Shown here: in pieces, positions 50,285-59,969 of the stretch | Layout: every line of letters starts with the position of its first letter | Position numbering within the stretch: position 1 is the first letter of the stretch | Assembly: GCF_003732545.1 (NCBI RefSeq) | Contig: NZ_AYKF01000099.1 | Span: forward strand, 1 to 64,000 | DNA from: Salinisphaera orenii subsp. halophila YIM 95161 | GTDB taxonomy: Bacteria > Pseudomonadota > Gammaproteobacteria > Nevskiales > Salinisphaeraceae | DNA length: 64,000 nt | Direction: 5' to 3' | Program-made: the position numbers and the translations under genes | Notes under the pieces: generated by a model | What the model saw: the letters and a program-made list of their open reading frames with translations, nothing else | Databases searched by the model: none | What the model was told of the DNA's origin: nothing

Positions 50285-50371
50285 GCCGCCGTGGTGGAAT
50301 GGGTAGACACGCCAGGTTTAGGTCCTGGTGGCCGAAAGGCCATGGGGGTTCAAGTCCCTCCGGCGGCACCA
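50285..50371 (+). tRNA. tRNA-Leu (TAG), integration target of element 2
   Basis: An 87-nt class II tRNA. The acceptor GCCGCCG pairs with CGGCGGC, with discriminator A, an encoded CCA, anticodon TAG in GTTTAGG, and the long variable arm TGGCCGAAAGGCCA. A -10-like TACGAT (50268-50273) lies upstream. The last 19 nt recur at 59951-59969. Confidence 0.97.
50353..50371 (+). repeat. attL of element 2 (19-bp direct repeat)
   Basis: Identical to 59951-59969. It covers the T-arm 3' strand, acceptor 3' strand and CCA of tRNA-Leu(TAG). Mismatches on both sides (A/G before, C/A after) set the limits. Confidence 0.85.
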
Positions 50372-50381
50372 CGCGATATAG

Positions 50382-50399
50382 TCCTTTGTTAATAAAGGA
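50382..50399. repeat. Inverted repeat just inside attL of element 2
   Basis: TCCTTT - GTTAAT - AAAGGA, a perfect 6-bp inverted repeat 11 nt after the tRNA CCA, followed by ATTTTAG. It could be a weak terminator for the tRNA or a recombination site. Confidence 0.4.
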
Positions 50400-50431
50400 A
50401 TTTTAGCCGTTTATCTAGTGTATGACGTGGC

Positions 50432-50452
50432 TGGTACAAAGCCACGGTACAT
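50432..50452 (+). repeat. Left arm repeat of element 2 (TGGTACA / CGGTACA)
   Basis: TGGTACA (50432-50438) and CGGTACA (50445-50451) with a 13-bp period. The 21-bp block matches 59872-59892 with three differences. It lies between attL and the integrase start codon and slightly overlaps nothing else. Probable integrase arm site. Confidence 0.55.
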
Positions 50453-52171
50453 ATGCGTCGATACCCCGCACCTTCCTATCTCCTACACAGAGCCTCGGGC
50501 TGGTACTTCCGGTACGTGGTCCCCGCTCCGGTTTCGCGCCTCATCGGCCGCCGTGAACTGCGTGTCTCGCTGCGGACGCGCCAGCGTCGAATTGCACGGC
50601 GCCGCGCCGCTCCGCTAGTGTCGGCGGCCGCGACACTGGCCGAACTTGGGGACCGGCTCCGCATGGACATCATCGACCCGGACACGGCGGCGGCCCTTGG
50701 CGAACGGGTTATTCGTGAGTCACTGGAAGACTTCGAGCGCAAGCGCGCCAGACTCCAGCCAATAACCGACGACGTGGCCGATGCGTTGCGTGAAGACTGC
50801 TGGGGATGCAAGAACGGTTATCTTGAGGCGCTGGCGCGCGGGCATTGGGAAGGCTTCCACCACCATGTCGATGACTTCATCGCCGAGCATGGGCTATCGA
50901 TCCAACGCGGTACGCTGCCTTACTGGGAGCTGTGCCGGTCTGTCGCGAAGGCCGCCGCCGATGGCGAACGGATAGCCGAAACGCGGCTGACAAACGACCT
51001 TGAAGGCGAACGGGAGATACTGGCCAAGTATCAGCCCAGCGCGGAGCCGTCAGCCGAACGGGCACCGTCCACCGACGCGCCACGCCGTCCGCCAACGAAA
51101 GGCCGCGAGAGAAAGCGGCGGCGGTTCGCAGACCATCTTGACGAGTTCGCCCAGGACAAGCTGGAGCTAGGCGAGTGGGGCGACAGCACGGCCGAACAGC
51201 AGACCAGCCGCAACCAACGTTTCCTTGATCTGGTCGGCAACTGGCCGCTTGACGACATCGAGCCCCGGACAGTACGCGACTACCGGAGCCAGCTTGGACA
51301 ATTGCCCGTCCACATGAACAAGCGCAAGGCGTATCGCGACAAGTCGGCGGTCGAGCTGGTCGACATGGAGATTCCCGAATCCGACCTGATGAGTCCCCGG
51401 ACGGTCGGCGAGTACCTCGACGCCCTGTCTAGCTATTTATCGTGGTGCGTCCAAATGGGCTATGCGCAGACCAATCCGGCCCGGGAGATTCGCAAGCCAA
51501 AATGGAAGCAGAACCCCCGCATTCCGTTTGAGGCTCCGGAGCTGAGGTCTTTACTGCTTAACGACGACATGCGTAATGGGCGGATGGGCCGCGCCTGGCG
51601 TCACTGGTCCCCACTCATCGCGCTGCTTTCGGGGACGCGGGCCGGTGAGATTGCGCAGCTACGTGTGGCCGACGTGCGTGGAAGAGGGCAGGGAGAGCCT
51701 GTTCTATCGATCAACGATGACGATGGAAAGAAACTGAAGACGGACCACGCCCGCCGCGAAATACCGGTCCATTCGCAGCTGATTGAGGCTGGCTTTCTCG
51801 AGTACGTGGACGACATCGAGCGGCGTGGGTACGCACGGCTTTTCCCACACCTCACCGTGCCGGACGAGCGTCCCCACCGGAACTTATCGCGTTGGTTCGC
51901 GGAATATCGGCTGTCATGTGGCATCGGTGGTGGGGAAGACGACAATAAGCAGTTTCATAGCTTCCGTGGTACAGCCCGGACAGCTATGGGCCGCGCTGGG
52001 GTTCCGAAGCCGCACATCGACGAAGTTATCGGACACGCGCCTCAAGAAATCGGCGAACGTCACTACCAGCACGGATACACGTTCGACCAGCGCAAAAAGG
52101 CGATAGAAGCCATACAGATTGACGGTCTGGACCTGTCCCCGCTGCGCGGGGTGTGGCGGCACTACGTGTGA
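50453..52171 (+). CDS. int: Tyrosine integrase of element 2
   Basis: A 572-residue tyrosine recombinase, longer than element 1's and unrelated in its N-terminal part (SYLLHRASGWYFRYVVPAP, a DUF6538-like start). The catalytic domain keeps R396 (LSGTRAGE), H502 and R505 (FHSFRGTAR), H528 (IGHAPQE) and the nucleophile Y538 (GERHYQH). A basic KGRERKRRRF linker near residue 220 separates the arm and core parts. It should act at the tRNA-Leu(TAG) 3' end. It converges on the 762-residue gene. Confidence 0.94.
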   Translation: MRRYPAPSYLLHRASGWYFRYVVPAPVSRLIGRRELRVSLRTRQRRIARRRAAPLVSAAATLAELGDRLRMDIIDPDTAAALGERVIRESLEDFERKRARLQPITDDVADALREDCWGCKNGYLEALARGHWEGFHHHVDDFIAEHGLSIQRGTLPYWELCRSVAKAAADGERIAETRLTNDLEGEREILAKYQPSAEPSAERAPSTDAPRRPPTKGRERKRRRFADHLDEFAQDKLELGEWGDSTAEQQTSRNQRFLDLVGNWPLDDIEPRTVRDYRSQLGQLPVHMNKRKAYRDKSAVELVDMEIPESDLMSPRTVGEYLDALSSYLSWCVQMGYAQTNPAREIRKPKWKQNPRIPFEAPELRSLLLNDDMRNGRMGRAWRHWSPLIALLSGTRAGEIAQLRVADVRGRGQGEPVLSINDDDGKKLKTDHARREIPVHSQLIEAGFLEYVDDIERRGYARLFPHLTVPDERPHRNLSRWFAEYRLSCGIGGGEDDNKQFHSFRGTARTAMGRAGVPKPHIDEVIGHAPQEIGERHYQHGYTFDQRKKAIEAIQIDGLDLSPLRGVWRHYV

Positions 52172-52204
52172 CGAAAAAAGCAGGGCCATGGCAGGCAGCC
52201 CACG

Positions 52205-52225
52205 CCGGAGCCGCAGGGGCTCCGG
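52205..52225. terminator. Hairpin between convergent integrase and virion-protein genes
   Basis: CCGGAGCC pairs with GGCTCCGG across a 5-nt GCAGG loop. It lies 34 nt after the integrase stop and 18 nt beyond the stop of the convergent gene. No T-run is present on either side. It is a plausible shared terminator. Confidence 0.45.
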
Positions 52226-52242
52226 ACATGGGCGGGACCGGT

Positions 52243-54531
52243 CTAGTAACGACCACCCGGTGCGCCTTGCGGCGGCTGTTCCGGAGGCTGGCCGGTTAGT
52301 TTGTCCCGCACGGCCTGCAGACCATCCGCAATAGACTGCCGGACAGCTTCGCGGTCTTCCTCGGTCGCTGCCTCGACCATACTGGACCGCCTGGCAGGCG
52401 ACCCGCCGGGCACCGGCACCGGCCGTGCCGCTCTGGCGTCGGCCTCGGTCGGCCGTTCGGCGTTGGCGTCGGACAGTACTTTGTCCGAATACGCTTGCAC
52501 GGCTTCCGCCATGTCGAACGTCAGTGGCTTGGTCCGGCCATCGCCGTTATCGACAATGGCCGGTGAGCTGTTGTTGAGAAAAACCACCATCTCGCCCTCG
52601 CGGCCCGGTACGATCTTGAGGTCGTCCATCTCCACGTCGCCGCCGCTGCCCTCTTGGATGGCCGGTAGCTCAGCGGCTAGCTTGGCGTTGACCGCTTCCG
52701 TGGCGTTGCTCCCGAACTGCCCACGGATATACGTCCCCCGGACAAGCGTATGCGTCGCCTTATATCGATCCTTCGCGGTCTCCAACGCTTGGTCGAGGCT
52801 GGCGCGGGCGTACCGCATTTCCCGGGTCGCCATCTTGCGTATGTCCTGCTTGACGTCGAGGGCATTGGTTACCCGGCCGACATCGCCGCCATAGTCCGAA
52901 CCTAGCCCGAGGAAAGACGACACGTCGGTGACCTCGCCCACGGTCCTGCGCAGATTCTCGAAGCTCTCGGAGCTGTAGAAGGTCTTTTCGTCGATGGGGT
53001 TGGCGAGGTCTCTCGTCGCCTTGACGTAGGCCGGGGTCAGGTCGGGGCCGGACTCCGAATCACCCGGCACGTAATCCCCCGACCGCTCATAGGCTTCGAC
53101 CCGCTCATACATGCGACGGGCATCGGGCCGCAACAGGTTGTCGAGCAGGCCGCGCGTTCGGGGGTCGTCTTTCAGCGCCCGGTAGCGTGAATATCCCGCG
53201 CGGAATGCATCCGGCATCGAGCCGTCGGCGGAAGGCGCTTCAGCTCCGGCGTTCAACTGGGCGGCTAGCCAATCATCTTTGACACCGCCGACACCTCCGG
53301 ACAGCTCGGCGACGCGCGTAGCGTAGTCCACGAATGCCTGTTGTCGCCCCTCGGGCGTCTCTTCGTGCTGACTGAAGATGCCCCGCCGCATGTGGCCGAA
53401 CACTTCCTGTTGCTCACTGTGGGTCTTCATGCGCATGGATACCGGCGAGACCTGCCCCGATGTCGCGGCTGCCGCCTCGCGGCGTCGTGCGGCTGCCTGT
53501 CGGGCGGTATCTTGCGACCGGGACAACATCGACGCGAGCTGATTGGGCGAATACCAGTCGGGGTGCTCGCGGTTCACCCGCTGAATATCGTCCATGGTCA
53601 ACGCGCCGCTTTCCATCTTGCGACGTAGCGAGTAATGCTCGGTCAGCTCAGCGGCGGATGTCCGTTGTTCGGCCTCGGATTCGATCTGGTCTCGTGCGCG
53701 TAGGAGGCTGTCGTGCAGCTCCGGGTTGTCAGCGATGGCCACGCCGTCCTCGTTCTCCTCGAACAGGAAGTCGAGCTTCGACGGGTCCGTGGACTCTTCG
53801 GCCCGGCGTATGGCGGCGTTCGCCACCATGGCGTGGACTCGATTCTGGCTGACGTTGAGCTTGGCGCCCGCGTTCTCCAGAATCTCCATGCTGTCGGCCG
53901 AGCCGAGGACGCCTTGCTCGGCCAGGTCATCGATCTGGGCGTTGAGCTTGGCGCGGCCGTCCTGCTGCTGGCGCTTGATGGCCACGTCCCGCGCTTCGGC
54001 CTTGAGCTTCTGGGCGTCGGATGACAGCCGGTTCGCGTAGACGTCCACGGCCTCGGGGTCTTCAACGCCCTGAATCGCGCCGCTGGCCGTAGCGTCGAGG
54101 TAGGTTTCGACCTCGTCGACGCCGACCTCCGGGTCGTTCATCATCCGCTCGGCCTGCTCGGCCATGTCGGCGGATACGTCCTTGGCCTGCTGCGAGTAGG
54201 ACAGCCGCATATAGGTCCGGCTGTAATCCTCGTTGCCGAACTCGGCGCGCTCCTTGGCCTGTTCCATGTCGACGTCCTTGTTGACATCCGCATGGAAGTC
54301 CTTGAACGCCTGCAGACGCTGCTGCTTGGCTTCTTCCTTCTGGGCCTTGGCGCTCTGCTTCTGGGCGATGCCCGATACCGTGTCGGCGACGGACACCAGC
54401 GCGTCGGCCGTCTGCTGTGTCTTGGTCCGACCGGGGCGTTCGGCAACGACGCCGCCTTGGGTTCGCTCCTGGCGCTGGCCGAAGTCGGAATCAGGGCGGG
54501 CGTTGGCTTGGCTTCGGTTACCTCGTGGCAA
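52243..54531 (-). CDS. Large helical protein resembling podovirus internal virion (ejection) proteins
   Basis: A 762-residue soluble protein, very rich in Ala, Glu, Asp, Gln and Arg, mostly predicted helical by eye, with no signal peptide, membrane segment or cysteine-rich motif. The early SVADTVSGIAQKQSAKAQKE coiled coil and later DDIQRVNREHPDWYSPNQLA segment recall internal core proteins of T7-like and other podoviruses. The TTG at 54531 is chosen: CGGAG lies 10 nt upstream and the next gene ends at 54591. The frame runs open to 54774 but with low-quality sequence. The function is inference; the size and style make a virion protein the best guess. Confidence 0.55.
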   Translation of the reverse strand: MPRGNRSQANARPDSDFGQRQERTQGGVVAERPGRTKTQQTADALVSVADTVSGIAQKQSAKAQKEEAKQQRLQAFKDFHADVNKDVDMEQAKERAEFGNEDYSRTYMRLSYSQQAKDVSADMAEQAERMMNDPEVGVDEVETYLDATASGAIQGVEDPEAVDVYANRLSSDAQKLKAEARDVAIKRQQQDGRAKLNAQIDDLAEQGVLGSADSMEILENAGAKLNVSQNRVHAMVANAAIRRAEESTDPSKLDFLFEENEDGVAIADNPELHDSLLRARDQIESEAEQRTSAAELTEHYSLRRKMESGALTMDDIQRVNREHPDWYSPNQLASMLSRSQDTARQAAARRREAAAATSGQVSPVSMRMKTHSEQQEVFGHMRRGIFSQHEETPEGRQQAFVDYATRVAELSGGVGGVKDDWLAAQLNAGAEAPSADGSMPDAFRAGYSRYRALKDDPRTRGLLDNLLRPDARRMYERVEAYERSGDYVPGDSESGPDLTPAYVKATRDLANPIDEKTFYSSESFENLRRTVGEVTDVSSFLGLGSDYGGDVGRVTNALDVKQDIRKMATREMRYARASLDQALETAKDRYKATHTLVRGTYIRGQFGSNATEAVNAKLAAELPAIQEGSGGDVEMDDLKIVPGREGEMVVFLNNSSPAIVDNGDGRTKPLTFDMAEAVQAYSDKVLSDANAERPTEADARAARPVPVPGGSPARRSSMVEAATEEDREAVRQSIADGLQAVRDKLTGQPPEQPPQGAPGGRY

Positions 54532-54590
54532 TGGGGTGGCTCCGTTGTTGGGGACAGAAAGCCGCCGCGCTGCTGCAGGCGGGCGGCCGC

Positions 54591-55001
54591 TTAGTGCAGG
54601 GCGACCAGTTCGGGGGCGTGCTCCTGCATCGCGTTTTCGATGTGGCGGTAGGCAGCCCGGGCCAGCTCGGCGACCTCGCGGGCGCGGTCTAGGTGGGGCT
54701 GCGTCGCGCTCTTGGCGGCGGCCTGTCGGATATGAAACGCGCAGTAGACACGGCCCCGCGTGTCTTCGTGACACGTACTGCCGTCAGCCCGGTGGGCGGA
54801 CGCATCGCGCAGCGTGTGCATTGCGCGGCGCGCCATCGCTGCACGCTCTTCCGCCTGTGAACGTTCGAGGCGTGCAACCTCGGCCTCTGCCTCCGACAAG
54901 GCGGTTTCGGCCAGATAAAGCGAGTCATCCGGCTCAGTCCGGACGAATGCCAGCGCGGCGGCAACAAGGTCGGGGATAGTGGGTTCACTTTGGTCGGTCA
55001 T
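54591..55001 (-). CDS. Small helical protein of element 2
   Basis: A 136-residue protein with a long central helix (AETALSEAEAEVARLERSQA) and a Cys pair plus His near residues 77-90 (STCHEDTRGRVYCAFHIRQ). GAGGAG precedes the ATG at 55001. It lies 59 nt before the large virion-like gene and is likely in the same operon. I do not recognise a family. Confidence 0.55.
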   Translation of the reverse strand: MTDQSEPTIPDLVAAALAFVRTEPDDSLYLAETALSEAEAEVARLERSQAEERAAMARRAMHTLRDASAHRADGSTCHEDTRGRVYCAFHIRQAAAKSATQPHLDRAREVAELARAAYRHIENAMQEHAPELVALH

Positions 55002-55087
55002 GGTCCGTGGCTCCTCGGTATGCGGGTAAGTAGGGCGTCGTCGTTTCATGCTCGGCTTGCACGCCAGAGCGCAAGACACAAGACGTT

Positions 55088-55351
55088 CTAGGTGGCTTGG
55101 TGAGACTCTTTGCTTCGCAGCATGGCCGTGAACGCTGGGTCCACCGGTTCCCCCCATCGGGTGCCGTTGGGGCTGTTCAAGATGGCGTAGCCAAGCTCGG
55201 CGGGGTCGAGACAGACCCGGCGGTCACCGCGCCACACGCGGTGCTCGTCGAATGCTCTTAGTCCGCCGAAGACTTCGCCGCAACCGGTGCACTGCGAGAG
55301 CTTTCCGGTCAGCCGGGTCACGGCTGTGCGGGGCTGTGCGGGCTGTGCCAT
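55088..55351 (-). CDS. Phage FDxHR zinc-binding protein
   Basis: An 87-residue protein with the phage zinc-finger-like motif CTGCGEVFGGLRAFDEHR: C21 and C24, then FDEHR (34-38), and C47 (RVCLDP). This is a known small family in actinophages and other phages with unknown function, probably nucleic-acid binding. AAAGGAG precedes the ATG. Confidence 0.75.
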   Translation of the reverse strand: MAQPAQPRTAVTRLTGKLSQCTGCGEVFGGLRAFDEHRVWRGDRRVCLDPAELGYAILNSPNGTRWGEPVDPAFTAMLRSKESHQAT

Positions 55352-55383
55352 GGTTCGGCTCCTTTGGTTGGGCTGGCGGGTGG

Positions 55384-55803
55384 TCAGGGCGTCGTCGCGG
55401 CTTCGGTGGGCTCTTGGCGAACGTGGTGACGCTCGCGGCGGCGGTCTGCAGTGGCCCCGCGAAAGCGCTTCCGGTGGAGATTGCTCCGCCGAAGGTCCAG
55501 CGGGTTACCGTTGTCGGTCAGCACGCGCTCGTCGGGGCGGGCGTCCATAATCAGCCGGGACATGGAAGCCATGGAGAGGGTGCCGTCCGGAAACGTCACG
55601 GCTTTGCGGGCATAGACGTAGCCGTTGGCGACGGCGGCGCACCATCGGGAGCCGTACTGACGCGCAATGCGGTGCCAGTCGGCGGGCTCGACTATCGCCT
55701 CGTGTCCCTTGGTTAGGGGCACGAACAGCACCCGCGTGCCGTGGTAGAAGCCTTCGCGTACTGTGGCCGGGCGCTGGCCGGGGCGGTCTGTGGTCTGGAG
55801 CAT
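55384..55803 (-). CDS. HNH-like protein with degenerate active site
   Basis: A 139-residue protein. The C-terminal half follows the phage homing-type HNH pattern: SRLIMDARPDERVLTDNGNPLDLRRSNL, given here as two parts, MSRLIMDARPDERV and LTDNGNPLDLRRSNL. The residue normally His (vdHxNG) is Thr, so nuclease activity is doubtful; the fold may serve DNA binding. AAAGGAGA precedes the ATG at 55803. It is first in the minus-strand run of four genes. Confidence 0.6.
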   Translation of the reverse strand: MLQTTDRPGQRPATVREGFYHGTRVLFVPLTKGHEAIVEPADWHRIARQYGSRWCAAVANGYVYARKAVTFPDGTLSMASMSRLIMDARPDERVLTDNGNPLDLRRSNLHRKRFRGATADRRRERHHVRQEPTEAATTP

Positions 55804-56194
55804 GGCGGGTCTCCTTTGTTTGTGGATACAAAGCGGGATTTACTGGGCGGTACGAACAGACGCGCGTGGATGGCAGACCGGGGCCTCATCGCCTTGACCG
55901 CGACCAGACAGCGCGCGGCTATAGATCGGCGCGTCGGCTCGGCTCTGGTCGCGGGCGGACGGCACCGGGGCGGCCCATGGGTCAGCACTACCCGCACAAC
56001 TGCCCCCATGGTTGGCCCCCGGTGATATGCCGACGTGTGCGCGGTCGGCAGTGGGCTGCTGGCTGTTGTCTGCTCGCAGGGACCACGGCGCGACGGCGGC
56101 GCGTCATCGACCTAACCTTGGCGAGCCCTGGGCGAGCGCGTGACGCGGGCCTATCGAAGAGGACACCGCCACATGTCCGCACCGGCATGGCTAC
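55804..56194. other. Non-coding stretch upstream of the minus-strand operon
   Basis: About 390 nt with no convincing gene on either strand. It must contain the promoter of the HNH-to-virion-protein operon; minus-strand TTGTATCC lies close to the ribosome site, but no full promoter is clear. The inverted pairs CCATGGGTC and CCATGGTTGG (55975-56015) are short and may be chance. Confidence 0.4.
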
Positions 56195-56348
56195 GGCTTA
56201 GGCAGCTCCAAAGGAAAGACCACGAACGTCTGCGGGGAGTCGAGGTCTGGGCCTTTGCTCGGGCCTAAGTATTCAGCCTTTGCATGGGTATCCCCTCTCG
56301 GGGATGTCCCCTCTACTGAGTAGAAGGCTGCGGTGGCGTAGGCTCGCC
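56195..56348. ncRNA. Structured repeat R1 (candidate structured RNA or cis element)
   Basis: One of two related ~155-nt sequences. Outer stem P1 is CTTAGGC (56197-56203) with GCCTAAG (56263-56269). P2 is CAAAGG (56209-56214) with CCTTTG (56252-56257). An inner stem is AGACC (56217-56221) with GGTCT (56244-56248). A second hairpin, GGGG-ATGT-CCCC (56300-56311), is followed by GAAGGCTGCGG and GGCTCGCC. R2 keeps the same stems with compensatory changes. The transcribed strand is unknown; an origin or packaging site is also possible. Confidence 0.5.
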
Positions 56349-56631
56349 CCAGTAGTGCCCAAGGAAGCCAGAGGCCACACCGCGCGGCGGCCAGCGCGTG
56401 GCTTGCCCTGGCTCGCGCCAGCACGTGCGCAGATTCGCCGCCGTGCTGCCGCCTCGCGCATACGTCCGACACCACGCAGCCAGCGCTCGGGAGTCGAGAA
56501 GGGCAATAATCAGAGCAAGTTGGCGCGGCCATTGACCACTCGCAACCGTTACGGGGTGGCAAGTGTTGCGAGGTCTTGTCGCGGCGTGTTCCCTGCTAAC
56601 TTCAAATCGGAAAAATAGAGGAAGACACGCC

Positions 56632-56847
56632 ATGGCAGCAGACACCATCATCGACCGCGACACGTTCGAAGCAGAAGACGGCGTCCAGTTCAGCGGCACC
56701 ATTGACGAAGACGGCCACGTCGTCATCGACGTAGACGACCCCGACAACGAGGTCGACAACCGGGTCCGGCTATTCGCTGACGACCTCGGCGGACTCGTGG
56801 CGATGCTGCAGCGGTTCCAGCAGACAAGCCAACGCGATGCGGGCTGA
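56632..56847 (+). CDS. Acidic 71-residue protein of element 2
   Basis: A very acidic protein, MAADTIIDRDTFEAEDGVQF onward, ending in MLQRFQQTSQRDAG. AGAGGA lies 10 nt before the ATG at 56632 in a short AT-rich leader, good support for translation. It is the only plus-strand gene in the element's middle and is flanked by repeats R1 and R2. DNA mimicry or a protein-binding role is possible by charge alone; the family is unknown. Confidence 0.6.
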   Translation: MAADTIIDRDTFEAEDGVQFSGTIDEDGHVVIDVDDPDNEVDNRVRLFADDLGGLVAMLQRFQQTSQRDAG

Positions 56848-57067
56848 CAACCAGCGTGGGCCTACCGTGCCCCAACTTTGGGGACATCGCGCCTTCGTGC
56901 TCGGCTAGGTCGCTGCGCCTAAATCCCGGCACGGCCACCGGCCCGAGCTTGAGCCGTCCGGCCGCTGGTGGTCCAACGGGCGCGCATGCGCTGGTCGACA
57001 GCAGGTTGGCGGGTGGCGTGCTAGGGCGGGGCGGACACCGGCGAGGTGTCTCCCCCTGCTGCGGTGA

Positions 57068-57223
57068 GAACTCAGGCAGATACCAAGGTCCAGCCTGCAG
57101 ACATCTGCAGGTGTGCTGTGGTCTGTCCCTTGGCTGGCCTGAGTGTTCGGCCATGGTGGTGGGTCTCCCTGTCGGGGTGACCCCCTCGACAGCGTGAAGA
57201 CTGCAGGCCGGCCACGGCTCGCC
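57068..57223. ncRNA. Structured repeat R2 (candidate structured RNA or cis element)
   Basis: The second copy, alignable to R1 over its full length. P1 is CTCAGGC (57071-57077) with GCCTGAG (57137-57143), and P2 is CCAAGG (57083-57088) with CCTTGG (57128-57133). Compared with R1, a T-A pair became C-G in P1 and an A-T pair became C-G in P2, and P1 arm spacing is identical (66 nt). The apex is CTGCAG-ACAT-CTGCAG (57095-57110). The 3' hairpin is CTGTCG...CGACAG (57169-57192) around GGGG...CCCC, then GAAGACTGCAG and GGCTCGCC. Confidence 0.5.
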
Positions 57224-57587
57224 ATAGGTTCAGCCAAGGTATAACCATTGGTATAAACCTAGGTTGAAACCCTAGGGAGAAGTCTGCGGTGCCCCCCAAA
57301 CCCCCCACGGCTCGCGGCCATGAGACGCTTGGGAGACACCGACAGCGATAAGTCTGTCTGCGTCTGCCCCCCCAGCAGTGGTGTCGGGATTGCTAGCCCG
57401 CGCTGGCATACGCGAGGCGCGTTGGGTTGTCGCCTCTGTATACCTAATGGGTGGGTTTCAAGTGCCGGCGGCAGATTCGGCGTACGGGCGCCGCGAACAA
57501 AGGCCCCGAAACGGCCGACCCGGTAGGGAACCCCATCCCCGGCCATTCGCGGCGATTGTGGCGCGCATGCAGCTCGCCTGTGCCTGT
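57224..57587. other. Non-coding stretch with a partial third repeat copy
   Basis: 364 nt without a convincing gene. It begins with GGTATAA-type direct repeats (57238-57257) and CCTAGG...CCCTAGG (57258-57276). Then GAGAAGTCTGCGGTG and CACGGCTCGC (57277-57315) match the 3' ends of R1 and R2, so a half copy (R3) is likely. The 5' part with P1 and P2 is absent. Confidence 0.4.
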
Positions 57588-58202
57588 CTACGAGCTGGTC
57601 TCCGGCTGGGTCTCGGCCTCGACACGGCCGACCGTACCGACACCACATCCCAGTTCCCGGGCTACTTTTTTCTTGCCCCAGCCTTTAGCCCTCAGTTCGC
57701 GTATCCGCTCTTTCGTGTCCTCGGCGACGGCCGGCCGGCCTAGCTGCTTGCCTTTCGCCCGGGCACGGTCTAGGCCGGCGTTGACGCGCTCTCGAATCAT
57801 CGAACGCTCGAACTCGGCGAACAACCCGAACATCTGGAACATTGCGCGACCTGCCGGCGTCGTGGTGTCGACGCCTTGGCGGTGGAGATAGAGGCCGCAC
57901 CCGGTCGCGTGAAGTTCGGCCATGAAGTTGCTGAGGTCTTGCGTGGAGCGGCCGAGCCGGTCGACAGACCATGCGGCAACCATGCTTATCTTGCGCCGCA
58001 CCGCATCCTTAAGCATCCGGTCGAACTCGGGGCGTTCGTCGCGCCCTTTGCCGCCGCTAATCCCGGCGTCGACATACTCGCCCACCACCGTCCAGCCTGC
58101 AGCGTCGGCGACCTCTCGCAACTCGTCCAGCTGATTCTCGCAGCTCTGGCCGTCCGTACTGACGCGAGCGTAGAGCGCAACCTTTTGCGTCTTGTTCGTC
58201 AT
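57588..58202 (-). CDS. Serine recombinase (resolvase/invertase family)
   Basis: A 204-residue small serine recombinase. The nucleophile is S15 in ALYARVSTDGQ, with the Arg-rich active-site strand in AWSVDRLGRSTQDL and the dimer helix AEFERSMIRERVNAGL. The C-terminal helix-turn-helix is ELRAKGWGKKKVARELGCG. Full length and apparently intact. GGGAGA precedes the ATG. Upstream lie GGTACC inverted repeats that could be its sites. Roles include inversion, dimer resolution or nested-element mobility. Confidence 0.92.
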   Translation of the reverse strand: MTNKTQKVALYARVSTDGQSCENQLDELREVADAAGWTVVGEYVDAGISGGKGRDERPEFDRMLKDAVRRKISMVAAWSVDRLGRSTQDLSNFMAELHATGCGLYLHRQGVDTTTPAGRAMFQMFGLFAEFERSMIRERVNAGLDRARAKGKQLGRPAVAEDTKERIRELRAKGWGKKKVARELGCGVGTVGRVEAETQPETSS

Positions 58203-58808
58203 GGCGTGGTGTCTCCCTTCCGTCGATGCAAAGGGGACGGTACGGGCGGAACCGGTACCGAGTCAAGTGGTTTCGGAACCTCTCCAAATGGCTGGTACCG
58301 GTCCAGATGAATCAGTGACCTATGGAGCTCGTCGACAGAGGGTTTTCGGTACCCAGGTTCAAAGAGCCCGCAGAGCGTGAGTACTCGGAGACAGCTGGCC
58401 GGGGTTCTCGCTGGCCAACAGCGGCATGCCCACCATCGCAGTGCGGCTTGCTACCGGATTACGGGTACACACGCAGCAGGCAGTAGGGATACCGCTGGCC
58501 ACTCACAGCATCGGCGCGGACCAGACCTCGCAGGGCACCCGATTGCTCCCCAGCCAGCCACGCCGCAGCAACATCGGCATCGACTATGAACCGACGCGAA
58601 TGTGGCGGGCAGTGGGGGTGCCCGGGGTCGGCGTCGGTCGCCGCCAAAGCATCGGCGAGGGATGACACGCGGGCCGAACCCCCACCCCCGTTAGCCGATC
58701 GACATAACCGGGGGTGCGGATATGGATTCGCCCGGGGCGCACGGGGGAACGCGCGCAATCCCTATATATTAAATACCCGCGCGGAAATCTGCGGTATACA
58801 TTTCCGGG
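58203..58808. other. Non-coding stretch with GGTACC repeats upstream of the serine recombinase
   Basis: 606 nt without a convincing gene. ACCGGTACC (58251-58259) and GGTACCGGT (58294-58302) form a 9-bp perfect inverted repeat, and a third GGTACC is at 58348-58353. Near the other end, CGGAAAT (58782-58788) pairs with ATTTCCG (58800-58806) directly after the Rha-like stop, a possible weak terminator. A minus-strand frame around 58560-58620 has a PIN-like FIVDADVAAAWLAGE fragment, too short to call. Confidence 0.45.
58251..58302. repeat. GGTACC inverted repeat, candidate recombinase site or operator
   Basis: ACCGGTACC and GGTACCGGT, separated by 34 nt, lie 49 nt upstream of the serine recombinase start. 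Each arm contains the same 6-bp palindrome, and a third copy follows at 58348. Spacing resembles a multi-subsite res region, but the crossover site cannot be placed. Confidence 0.45.
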
Positions 58809-59201
58809 CTAATTCTCCGCGTCCGACCGGCCGATACCGGCCCGCTCGTACTGCTCCGCCCAGGCTCGAGCTGCCTCGGCCGGGTTGGAGAAGTCGGGCA
58901 GCTCCGGCTGCTCGGCCTTGGCCGCGTCCTGCTGTTCATGCCACGGCGTGGCCTCGCCGGACTCCAGAGCCCGAAGCCGCCGGATGACAGCCATGCGGAG
59001 CTGAACCTTGTAACCGGTAACCAGACACATGACGTGGTCGTGGTCGAGGATGAAGTGTGGCTGCTCTTTGTTCTGGGTGTTTCGGTGGACTGCTGAAAAA
59101 TCAGCACTCCGTTTCCCAAGTCCTGTCAGCATCTTACGAATGTCGGCCATGACGTGCTTGTGTTCCTTACCAGTCAGCTCGGCAATCTCCAAGCTGGACA
59201 T
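58809..59201 (-). CDS. Rha family phage regulatory protein
   Basis: A 130-residue protein. The N-terminal half is the pRha domain: MSSLEIAELTGKEHKHVMAD, then DHDHVMCLVTGYKVQLRMAV, a lambdoid/P22-type regulatory fold that interferes with phage growth or acts as antirepressor. The C-terminal tail is acidic. The frame is open upstream to 59265 and the extra residues (NNATEDLT) also look family-like, but no ATG/GTG/TTG is available there, so a non-standard or lost start is possible. Confidence 0.8.
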   Translation of the reverse strand: MSSLEIAELTGKEHKHVMADIRKMLTGLGKRSADFSAVHRNTQNKEQPHFILDHDHVMCLVTGYKVQLRMAVIRRLRALESGEATPWHEQQDAAKAEQPELPDFSNPAEAARAWAEQYERAGIGRSDAEN

Positions 59202-59242
59202 GGTCAGGTCTTCGGTCGCGTTGTTGAGGGTCTCGGGATTGC

Positions 59243-59752
59243 TCAGCTGGCAAAGCCCGATTTAGTCCAGACGTCGTCGACCGCAGACGCGATATCGTGA
59301 AATATTGATCCGCTCATAGGCGGGCAGCCTTCGGAATAGCCCGAACCGTTTACGTTCAACAAGGTTTGATTCTCTCGCGTATCCACAAGATCGGCCGAGA
59401 TATGGTCGAACTTATACCCGCCACCGAAACAACGCTCAGACCAGTTCAGAGGCGCCGAGCCTTCGATAACCAGCACATATCTAGTCGATGCAGCATGGAA
59501 CTGCTCGACACTCCCGGGCCGCTTAGCCCGTGTCACATCCGACGTGGACGCCCATCGCTTCACCGTGAACCCGCGCTTCGCTAATAGCTGCTGAATCTCG
59601 ACGACCCAAGGCGCGTCCGGCGCGTCTAACGACAGCACCTTCGGCTGGCTAATTGGGTCATTGGTTAGGCGTGTCACTTGCCCGCTCGCACAGGCAGTCA
59701 ACGCGGCGAGTGCCGTAAGCGCTAAGAGGAGCGTGCCCCTATGAATCCCCAT
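59243..59752 (-). CDS. Putative lipoprotein of element 2
   Basis: A 169-residue secreted lipoprotein. The signal ends in the lipobox LTAC (cysteine at 21). The mature part has VEIQQLLAKRGFTVKRW and the strand YVLVIEGSAP, with a later FHDIASAVDDVW helix, similar in style to small envelope lipoproteins. In a phage-type element it may be a lysogenic conversion (superinfection exclusion) gene. That is inference. It ends 41 nt before the Rha-like start. Confidence 0.7.
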   Translation of the reverse strand: MGIHRGTLLLALTALAALTACASGQVTRLTNDPISQPKVLSLDAPDAPWVVEIQQLLAKRGFTVKRWASTSDVTRAKRPGSVEQFHAASTRYVLVIEGSAPLNWSERCFGGGYKFDHISADLVDTRENQTLLNVNGSGYSEGCPPMSGSIFHDIASAVDDVWTKSGFAS

Positions 59753-59871
59753 GTCATCCCCCTGTTATTCGAGGGCGCACGATGACCGCTCAAGACATAT
59801 CTGACAACAGCCACGCTCGGCAGCTGTGCCTACGTTGTAACGTTCGTGATGTTTACTTTGGCACAGTTGCT

Positions 59872-59892
59872 TGGTACAAAACCGTGGTACAT
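59872..59892 (+). repeat. Right arm repeat of element 2 (paired TGGTACA)
   Basis: TGGTACA (59872-59878) and TGGTACA (59885-59891) with a 13-bp period, matching 50432-50452 in 18 of 21 positions and in the same orientation. It lies 59 nt from attR, a mirror of the 61 nt on the left. Confidence 0.55.
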
Positions 59893-59950
59893 CACCGATA
59901 ACCTACTTGTCACGTCAGACACTTATGGCTTGTTGGTGCCAAGGAAACCG

Positions 59951-59969
59951 AGTCCCTCCGGCGGCACCA
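59951..59969 (+). repeat. attR of element 2 (19-bp copy of the tRNA-Leu 3' end)
   Basis: Identical to 50353-50371, AGTCCCTCCGGCGGCACCA. It carries only the last part of the T arm, the acceptor strand and CCA. Confidence 0.85.

Follow-up and report, generated by a model that had tools for sequence, protein, structure and literature searches.

A putative structured RNA appears to mark an undescribed family of satellite-like integrated elements in Salinisphaera orenii and relatives

We analyzed a window of 64,000 nt from Salinisphaera orenii subsp. halophila YIM 95161 (contig NZ_AYKF01000099.1, positions 1 to 64,000), and observed in its second integrated element a conserved sequence, at positions 57033-57400, that is on balance, if narrowly, probably a structured non-coding RNA of a predicted rightward transcript. 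This sequence consists of a repeat copy, B (57033-57223, plus strand), and an adjoining 3' domain (57235-57400, plus strand). A diverged partial duplicate that does not have the 3' domain, copy A, lies at 56161-56351 on the same strand. Copies A and B are homologous, their fold is conserved, and there is no protein frame.

The element that carries these copies is ~9.6 kb long and runs from the 3' end of a tRNA-Leu gene (50285-50371) to an exact 19-bp direct repeat, so that attL (50353-50371) and the attR core at the right end (59951-59969), both read on the plus strand, have the same core, AGTCCCTCCGGCGGCACCA. On the plus strand it encodes a tyrosine integrase with DUF6538 and Phage_integrase domains (50453-52171) and a small acidic protein of 71 aa (56632-56847) that matched no known family. 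The minus strand encodes a large helical protein (52243-54774), an FDXHR zinc-binding phage protein (55088-55351, PF24071), an HNH-like DNA-binding protein (55384-55803), a serine recombinase of the resolvase/invertase type (57588-58202) and a Rha/Ant-type antirepressor (58809-59201). The large protein, whose homologues begin near 54531, may resemble podovirus internal virion proteins: in a Foldseek comparison of its low-confidence model (pLDDT 57) with viral models, many internal virion proteins were matched (E 2e-8, TM about 0.2), and comparison with the PDB gave no significant match. Relatives of this protein by sequence were absent from IMG/VR, phages and plasmids, as relatives of the element's proteins were from IMG/VR. 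Among the main open reading frames of the element, no capsid, terminase or tail gene was recognized with Pfam and PHROGs, nor any replicase or primase gene, and PADLOC gave no defense-system matches. An integrase and attachment sites without capsid or tail genes are the features of a phage satellite, and on that basis the element at 50353-59969 can be described as satellite-like. Two further sites within it were noted: a strongly conserved, AT-rich block (CTATATA-TAAATRCCCGC...AAAATGC) lying at 58735-58815, between the genes for the recombinase and Rha, which is a possible recombination (res) site or promoter, and a small conserved palindrome, GCAAGTGTTGC, 5' of the small plus-strand gene (56553-56565), which is a possible operator.

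A DNA search among 60 relatives revealed two more such elements. One, in genome G014, is ~9.5 kb long and lies at a tRNA-Asn gene (L009 5594-15142); the other, in the Lysobacterales MAG G011 (contig PBAO01000060.1), is ~9.9 kb long (L010 429-10339) and has at both ends a 12-bp repeat, which corresponds to the tRNA-Asn end in G014. Identities between the window and these two elements are 64 and 48% for the large protein, 65 and 56% for the HNH-like protein, and 66 and 42% for the small acidic protein. In the G014 element, one in-frame stop breaks the gene for the large protein (L009 7080-8912). All three elements share genes for an integrase and for internal-virion-like, zinc, HNH-like and small acidic proteins, a serine recombinase and Rha, and have no capsid or replication genes. 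These three elements of ~9.5-10 kb, from different hosts, apparently represent an undescribed family.

The homology of A and B, originally predicted from the window alone, is not in doubt: their local alignment has a z-score of 17.5, and none of 500 dinucleotide shuffles reached the A-B score; BLASTN did not join them. Copy A also matches the orthologues of B (local z 9.2 and 7.2), and a covariance model that used only the three B sequences, and not A, recovered A at 55.3 bits (E 1.3e-13). The copies lie where they had been placed, but the repeat unit begins ~35 nt further upstream than had been proposed, with a hairpin that we call P0. The larger conserved unit, which the original prediction had missed, comprises B and the 3' domain and can be aligned in all three elements; B continues into this domain to about 57400, and A ends without it. 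Copy B is present in both homologous elements and copy A is absent from both, so that the proposal that the pair of copies is the functional arrangement is not supported. Since identity is 56% between A and B in the structural alignment and 60% between B and its orthologues, A either dates from about the time when the three elements diverged or evolves fast. The orthologues do not keep, as such, the two sequence boxes that had been singled out as shared, GAAGNCTGCRG and GGCTCGCC. Copy A sits 5' of the small acidic-protein gene and B sits 3' of it; in each of the three elements, the module of B and the 3' domain is nearer to this gene than to that of the recombinase, and in G011 about 25-30 nt separate the small gene's stop codon from the start of P0.

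We next consider the stems, all on the plus strand. Copy A contains P0, P1, P2, P3 and P4, and copy B contains P0, P1, P2 and a P4 hairpin (57161-57183). P0 lies at 56161-56178 in A and at 57033-57051 in B, and has the arms GACACC/GGTGTC, with GGCACG/CGTGCC in G011 and GGACA/TGTCC in copy A. The outer stem, P1, pairs GCTTAGGC (56196-56203) with GCCTAAGT (56263-56270) in A, and ACTCAGGC (57070-57077) with GCCTGAGT (57137-57144) in B. It encloses the inner stem, P2, formed by CAAAGG (56209-56214) and CCTTTG (56252-56257) in A and by CCAAGG (57083-57088) and CCTTGG (57128-57133) in B. Both stems, and the two compensatory differences between the copies, were found where they had been predicted. 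The predicted spacing of 66 nt between the outer arms is correct as the start-to-start distance of 7-nt arms and not as the distance between the arms, which is 59 nt; the arms of P2 are 37-39 nt apart in A and B. P3 and the outer part of P4 are not common to all copies.

The proposal that base pairing is under selection gained support from the orthologues, in which new paired changes preserve P0, P1, P2 and the 3'-domain helices. In P1, a C-G pair has become U-A in A and an A-U pair has become G-C in G011; in P2, a C-G pair has become A-U in A; and in P0 of G011, A-U has become G-C and C-G has become G-C. Pairs maintained through compensatory change, as expected of a structured non-coding RNA, number nine across four sequences (two in P0, two in P1, one in P2, three in P9 and one in P10). 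For 40 pairs defined by hand, 133 of the 143 cells (93%) in the four sequences are Watson-Crick or G-U, and P1 is paired in 97% of cells on a plain MAFFT alignment. On that alignment, covariation of P1 and P2 together did not exceed shuffles, owing to the misalignment of P2 and to small numbers; a column shuffle gave a z-score of about -9, a value biased upward by the hand-made alignment from which it comes. Because the sequences number just three or four, the shuffling controls are modest, and the evidence of covariation is that of four sequences. Selection seems to act on pairing in three elements at least, so that the best reading of the module is a nucleic acid that is both structured and functional.

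The 3' domain contains the helices P8 (57287-57291/57337-57341), P9 (57295-57301/57327-57333) and P10 (57341-57345/57354-57358), all on the plus strand, CCTAGG-type repeats, and the motifs GTCTGCGGTGCCCCCC and TGCGTCTGCCCCCC, which are near-invariant and lie mostly outside the helices. The clearest double change of all is in P9, where AAA/UUU has become UUU/AAA in G014 within otherwise constant C tracts; in P10, a G-C pair has become C-G. On a plain MAFFT alignment made from sequence only, 95.6% of cells in this domain are paired, compared with 24-51% when the structure is slid along the alignment. The two to three CCTAGG/CCTAAG-type repeats (57235-57280, and L009 11788-11818) could pair alternatively, the first with the second or the second with the third.

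The conserved protein frame by which the original prediction was to be refuted is not there: stops interrupt all six frames in all three elements, and we reject a protein-coding reading of the conserved stretch because none of the three has an open frame. In agreement with the original prediction, which could name no RNA family with this pattern, Rfam 15 gives only tRNAs in the window at gathering scores, and its best matches within 55804-57590 fall far below those scores. With a model of the 3' domain (R1), neither 369 genomes from the class nor 398 from the phylum gave an additional match, and with a model of B (R2) none came from 85 genomes of the order. A scan of 84,980 species genomes with an exact pattern, which misses diverged copies, yielded G011 as the sole true case, and no further copy was found in phages, plasmids or IMG/VR. 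Among the other matches, those at L017, L019 and L020 have the appearance of coding sequence and no match to the model, those in G002, G018 and G343 are coding or due to chance, and all 37 pattern matches in IMG/VR fail both models. Judged by these comparisons, the structured element is real, rare and new, and is without a family name.

The original prediction had offered either an RNA or a hairpin origin or packaging site. The selection on pairing from which it argued is supported, and neither stability nor the counts of G-U and A-C pairs selects a strand. Folded singly on either strand, copy A is weakly more stable than its shuffles (z about -1.3 to -2.5) and copy B clearly so (z about -3.5 to -4.9); folding energy of the 3' domain is lower on the minus strand in all three elements, with a z-score that is not always lower. 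Folding stability thus favors no strand, and the wobble counts, four G-U to three A-C, do not favor the plus strand. Scans for promoters and terminators recognized none.

A separate conserved hairpin, S1, lies 5' of the HNH-like gene (55899-55953, minus strand). It too has paired changes across the three elements, CGCGACCAGA/TCTGGTCGCG as against CGTGCCCAGA/TCTGGGCACG, with a C-A intermediate in G014. This intermediate would be a G-U pair on the minus strand, which fits a leader of the operon of the HNH-like gene. S1 also holds a constant segment, CGGCTCGGCTCTGG.

We favor an RNA for the module because it has nested stems with long spacers, is closely linked to the small gene, on its 3' side, has no coding capacity and exposes C-rich motifs. 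Most likely, B and the 3' domain would form the 3' region of the transcript that runs rightward from the small acidic-protein gene, or an RNA processed from that transcript. This RNA would fold into P0, a long interrupted hairpin of P1, P2 and P3, then P4 and a domain of P8, P9 and P10, leaving the near-invariant C-rich single strands GUCUGCGGUGCCCCCC and UGCGUCUGCCCCCC exposed for contact with an RNA or protein partner. Such contact may regulate genes of the element; when the rest of the element was searched for sequences with which the module could pair as an antisense RNA, no conserved target emerged. Copy A would be an older, diverged partial duplicate, 5' of the same gene, with only the first half of the fold.

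The main rival reading is a role at the level of DNA, which we regard as rather unlikely; it gains from the fact that neither folding nor wobbles decide the strand. The module would then be a cis site, such as a hairpin replication origin, a single-strand initiation site or a packaging site, present as A and B in two copies, in which the stems would act as hairpins of extruded or single-stranded DNA, and the G/C tracts as sites for a protein or an R-loop. Because the element has no recognizable replication or primase gene, an origin would have to be a cis site; PICMI satellites need their own primase (PMC10803314), which is missing here. The module is the longest conserved non-coding stretch of the element, its structure is similarly strong on both strands, and near-invariant G6/C6 tracts, together with the presence of two copies of one site, would suit an origin. 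However, we identified no iteron-like array and no Rep or nickase gene, RNA more typically shows nested stems, tens of nucleotides apart, that carry paired changes, and some copies have G-U pairs on the plus strand. A more specific proposal, that the module is a replication or packaging signal (a folded RNA primer or a hairpin) through which a podovirus helper amplifies and packages a ~9.5-kb satellite that has no Rep, primase or capsid genes, is improbable in our estimation.

It is similarly doubtful that the module is a cis-acting RNA, either a put-like antiterminator acting on RNA polymerase or a control of transcript processing or termination. The putL and putR sites of phage HK022 are, as A and B would be, two related copies of a structured nascent phage RNA with several stem-loops, and the phage-type element has in S1 a further covarying hairpin in the leader of the opposite operon. 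However, HK022 put RNA is about 70 nt long, with two stem-loops, and lies just downstream of early promoters (PMC9378689), whereas the module is ~190 nt (A or B) or ~370 nt (B with the 3' domain) and lies 3' of a small gene. Both size and position therefore differ from those of an HK022-type put site, to which sequence relation was checked through Rfam. Moreover, B closes the rightward unit, beyond which no plus-strand gene of the element was recognized, and A and B are on the same strand. We consider it very unlikely that the stems are chance inverted repeats in GC-rich DNA together with palindromic operators for Rha, the recombinase and the HNH-like protein: P1-P2 is close to palindromic, which is why the model also weakly matches the opposite strand (27.6 bits), and the CCTAGG-type repeats and the GCAAGTGTTGC palindrome resemble protein sites, but arms 59 nt (P1) and 37-39 nt (P2) apart stay complementary despite changes in both arms, and the held-out copy A was recovered.

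C4 antisense RNA is a phage RNA that controls an antirepressor gene, and the element likewise has a Rha/Ant antirepressor, but the module matches c4-a1b1 at chance level (12.4 bits against a gathering score of 46.7, E 7.6). RNA I and RNA II of ColE1-type plasmids are a structured RNA region with G/C tracts in an element that has no Rep gene; the module differs in having no Rfam RNAI match. VBR1, considered as an RNA-only plasmid replicon, was dropped because it has two protein genes. Phages and prophages carry two kinds of large structured RNA with no known function, GOLLD and ROOL (PMC12286853); these exceed 600 nt, have other folds and are often near tRNA islands, and the module has no Rfam match. 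Like the present element, PICMI and other phage satellites are small and integrated in the chromosome, with an integrase, few genes and no capsid genes; unlike them, it has no primase and has an internal-virion-like protein, a serine recombinase and Rha, and we found no sequence relation between them.

Overall, the module may represent a new family of structured RNAs or hairpin sites with near-invariant C-rich motifs, and would mark an apparently undescribed family of satellite-like elements. If functional, it would give direct access to the control, copying or packaging of elements as minimal as these.
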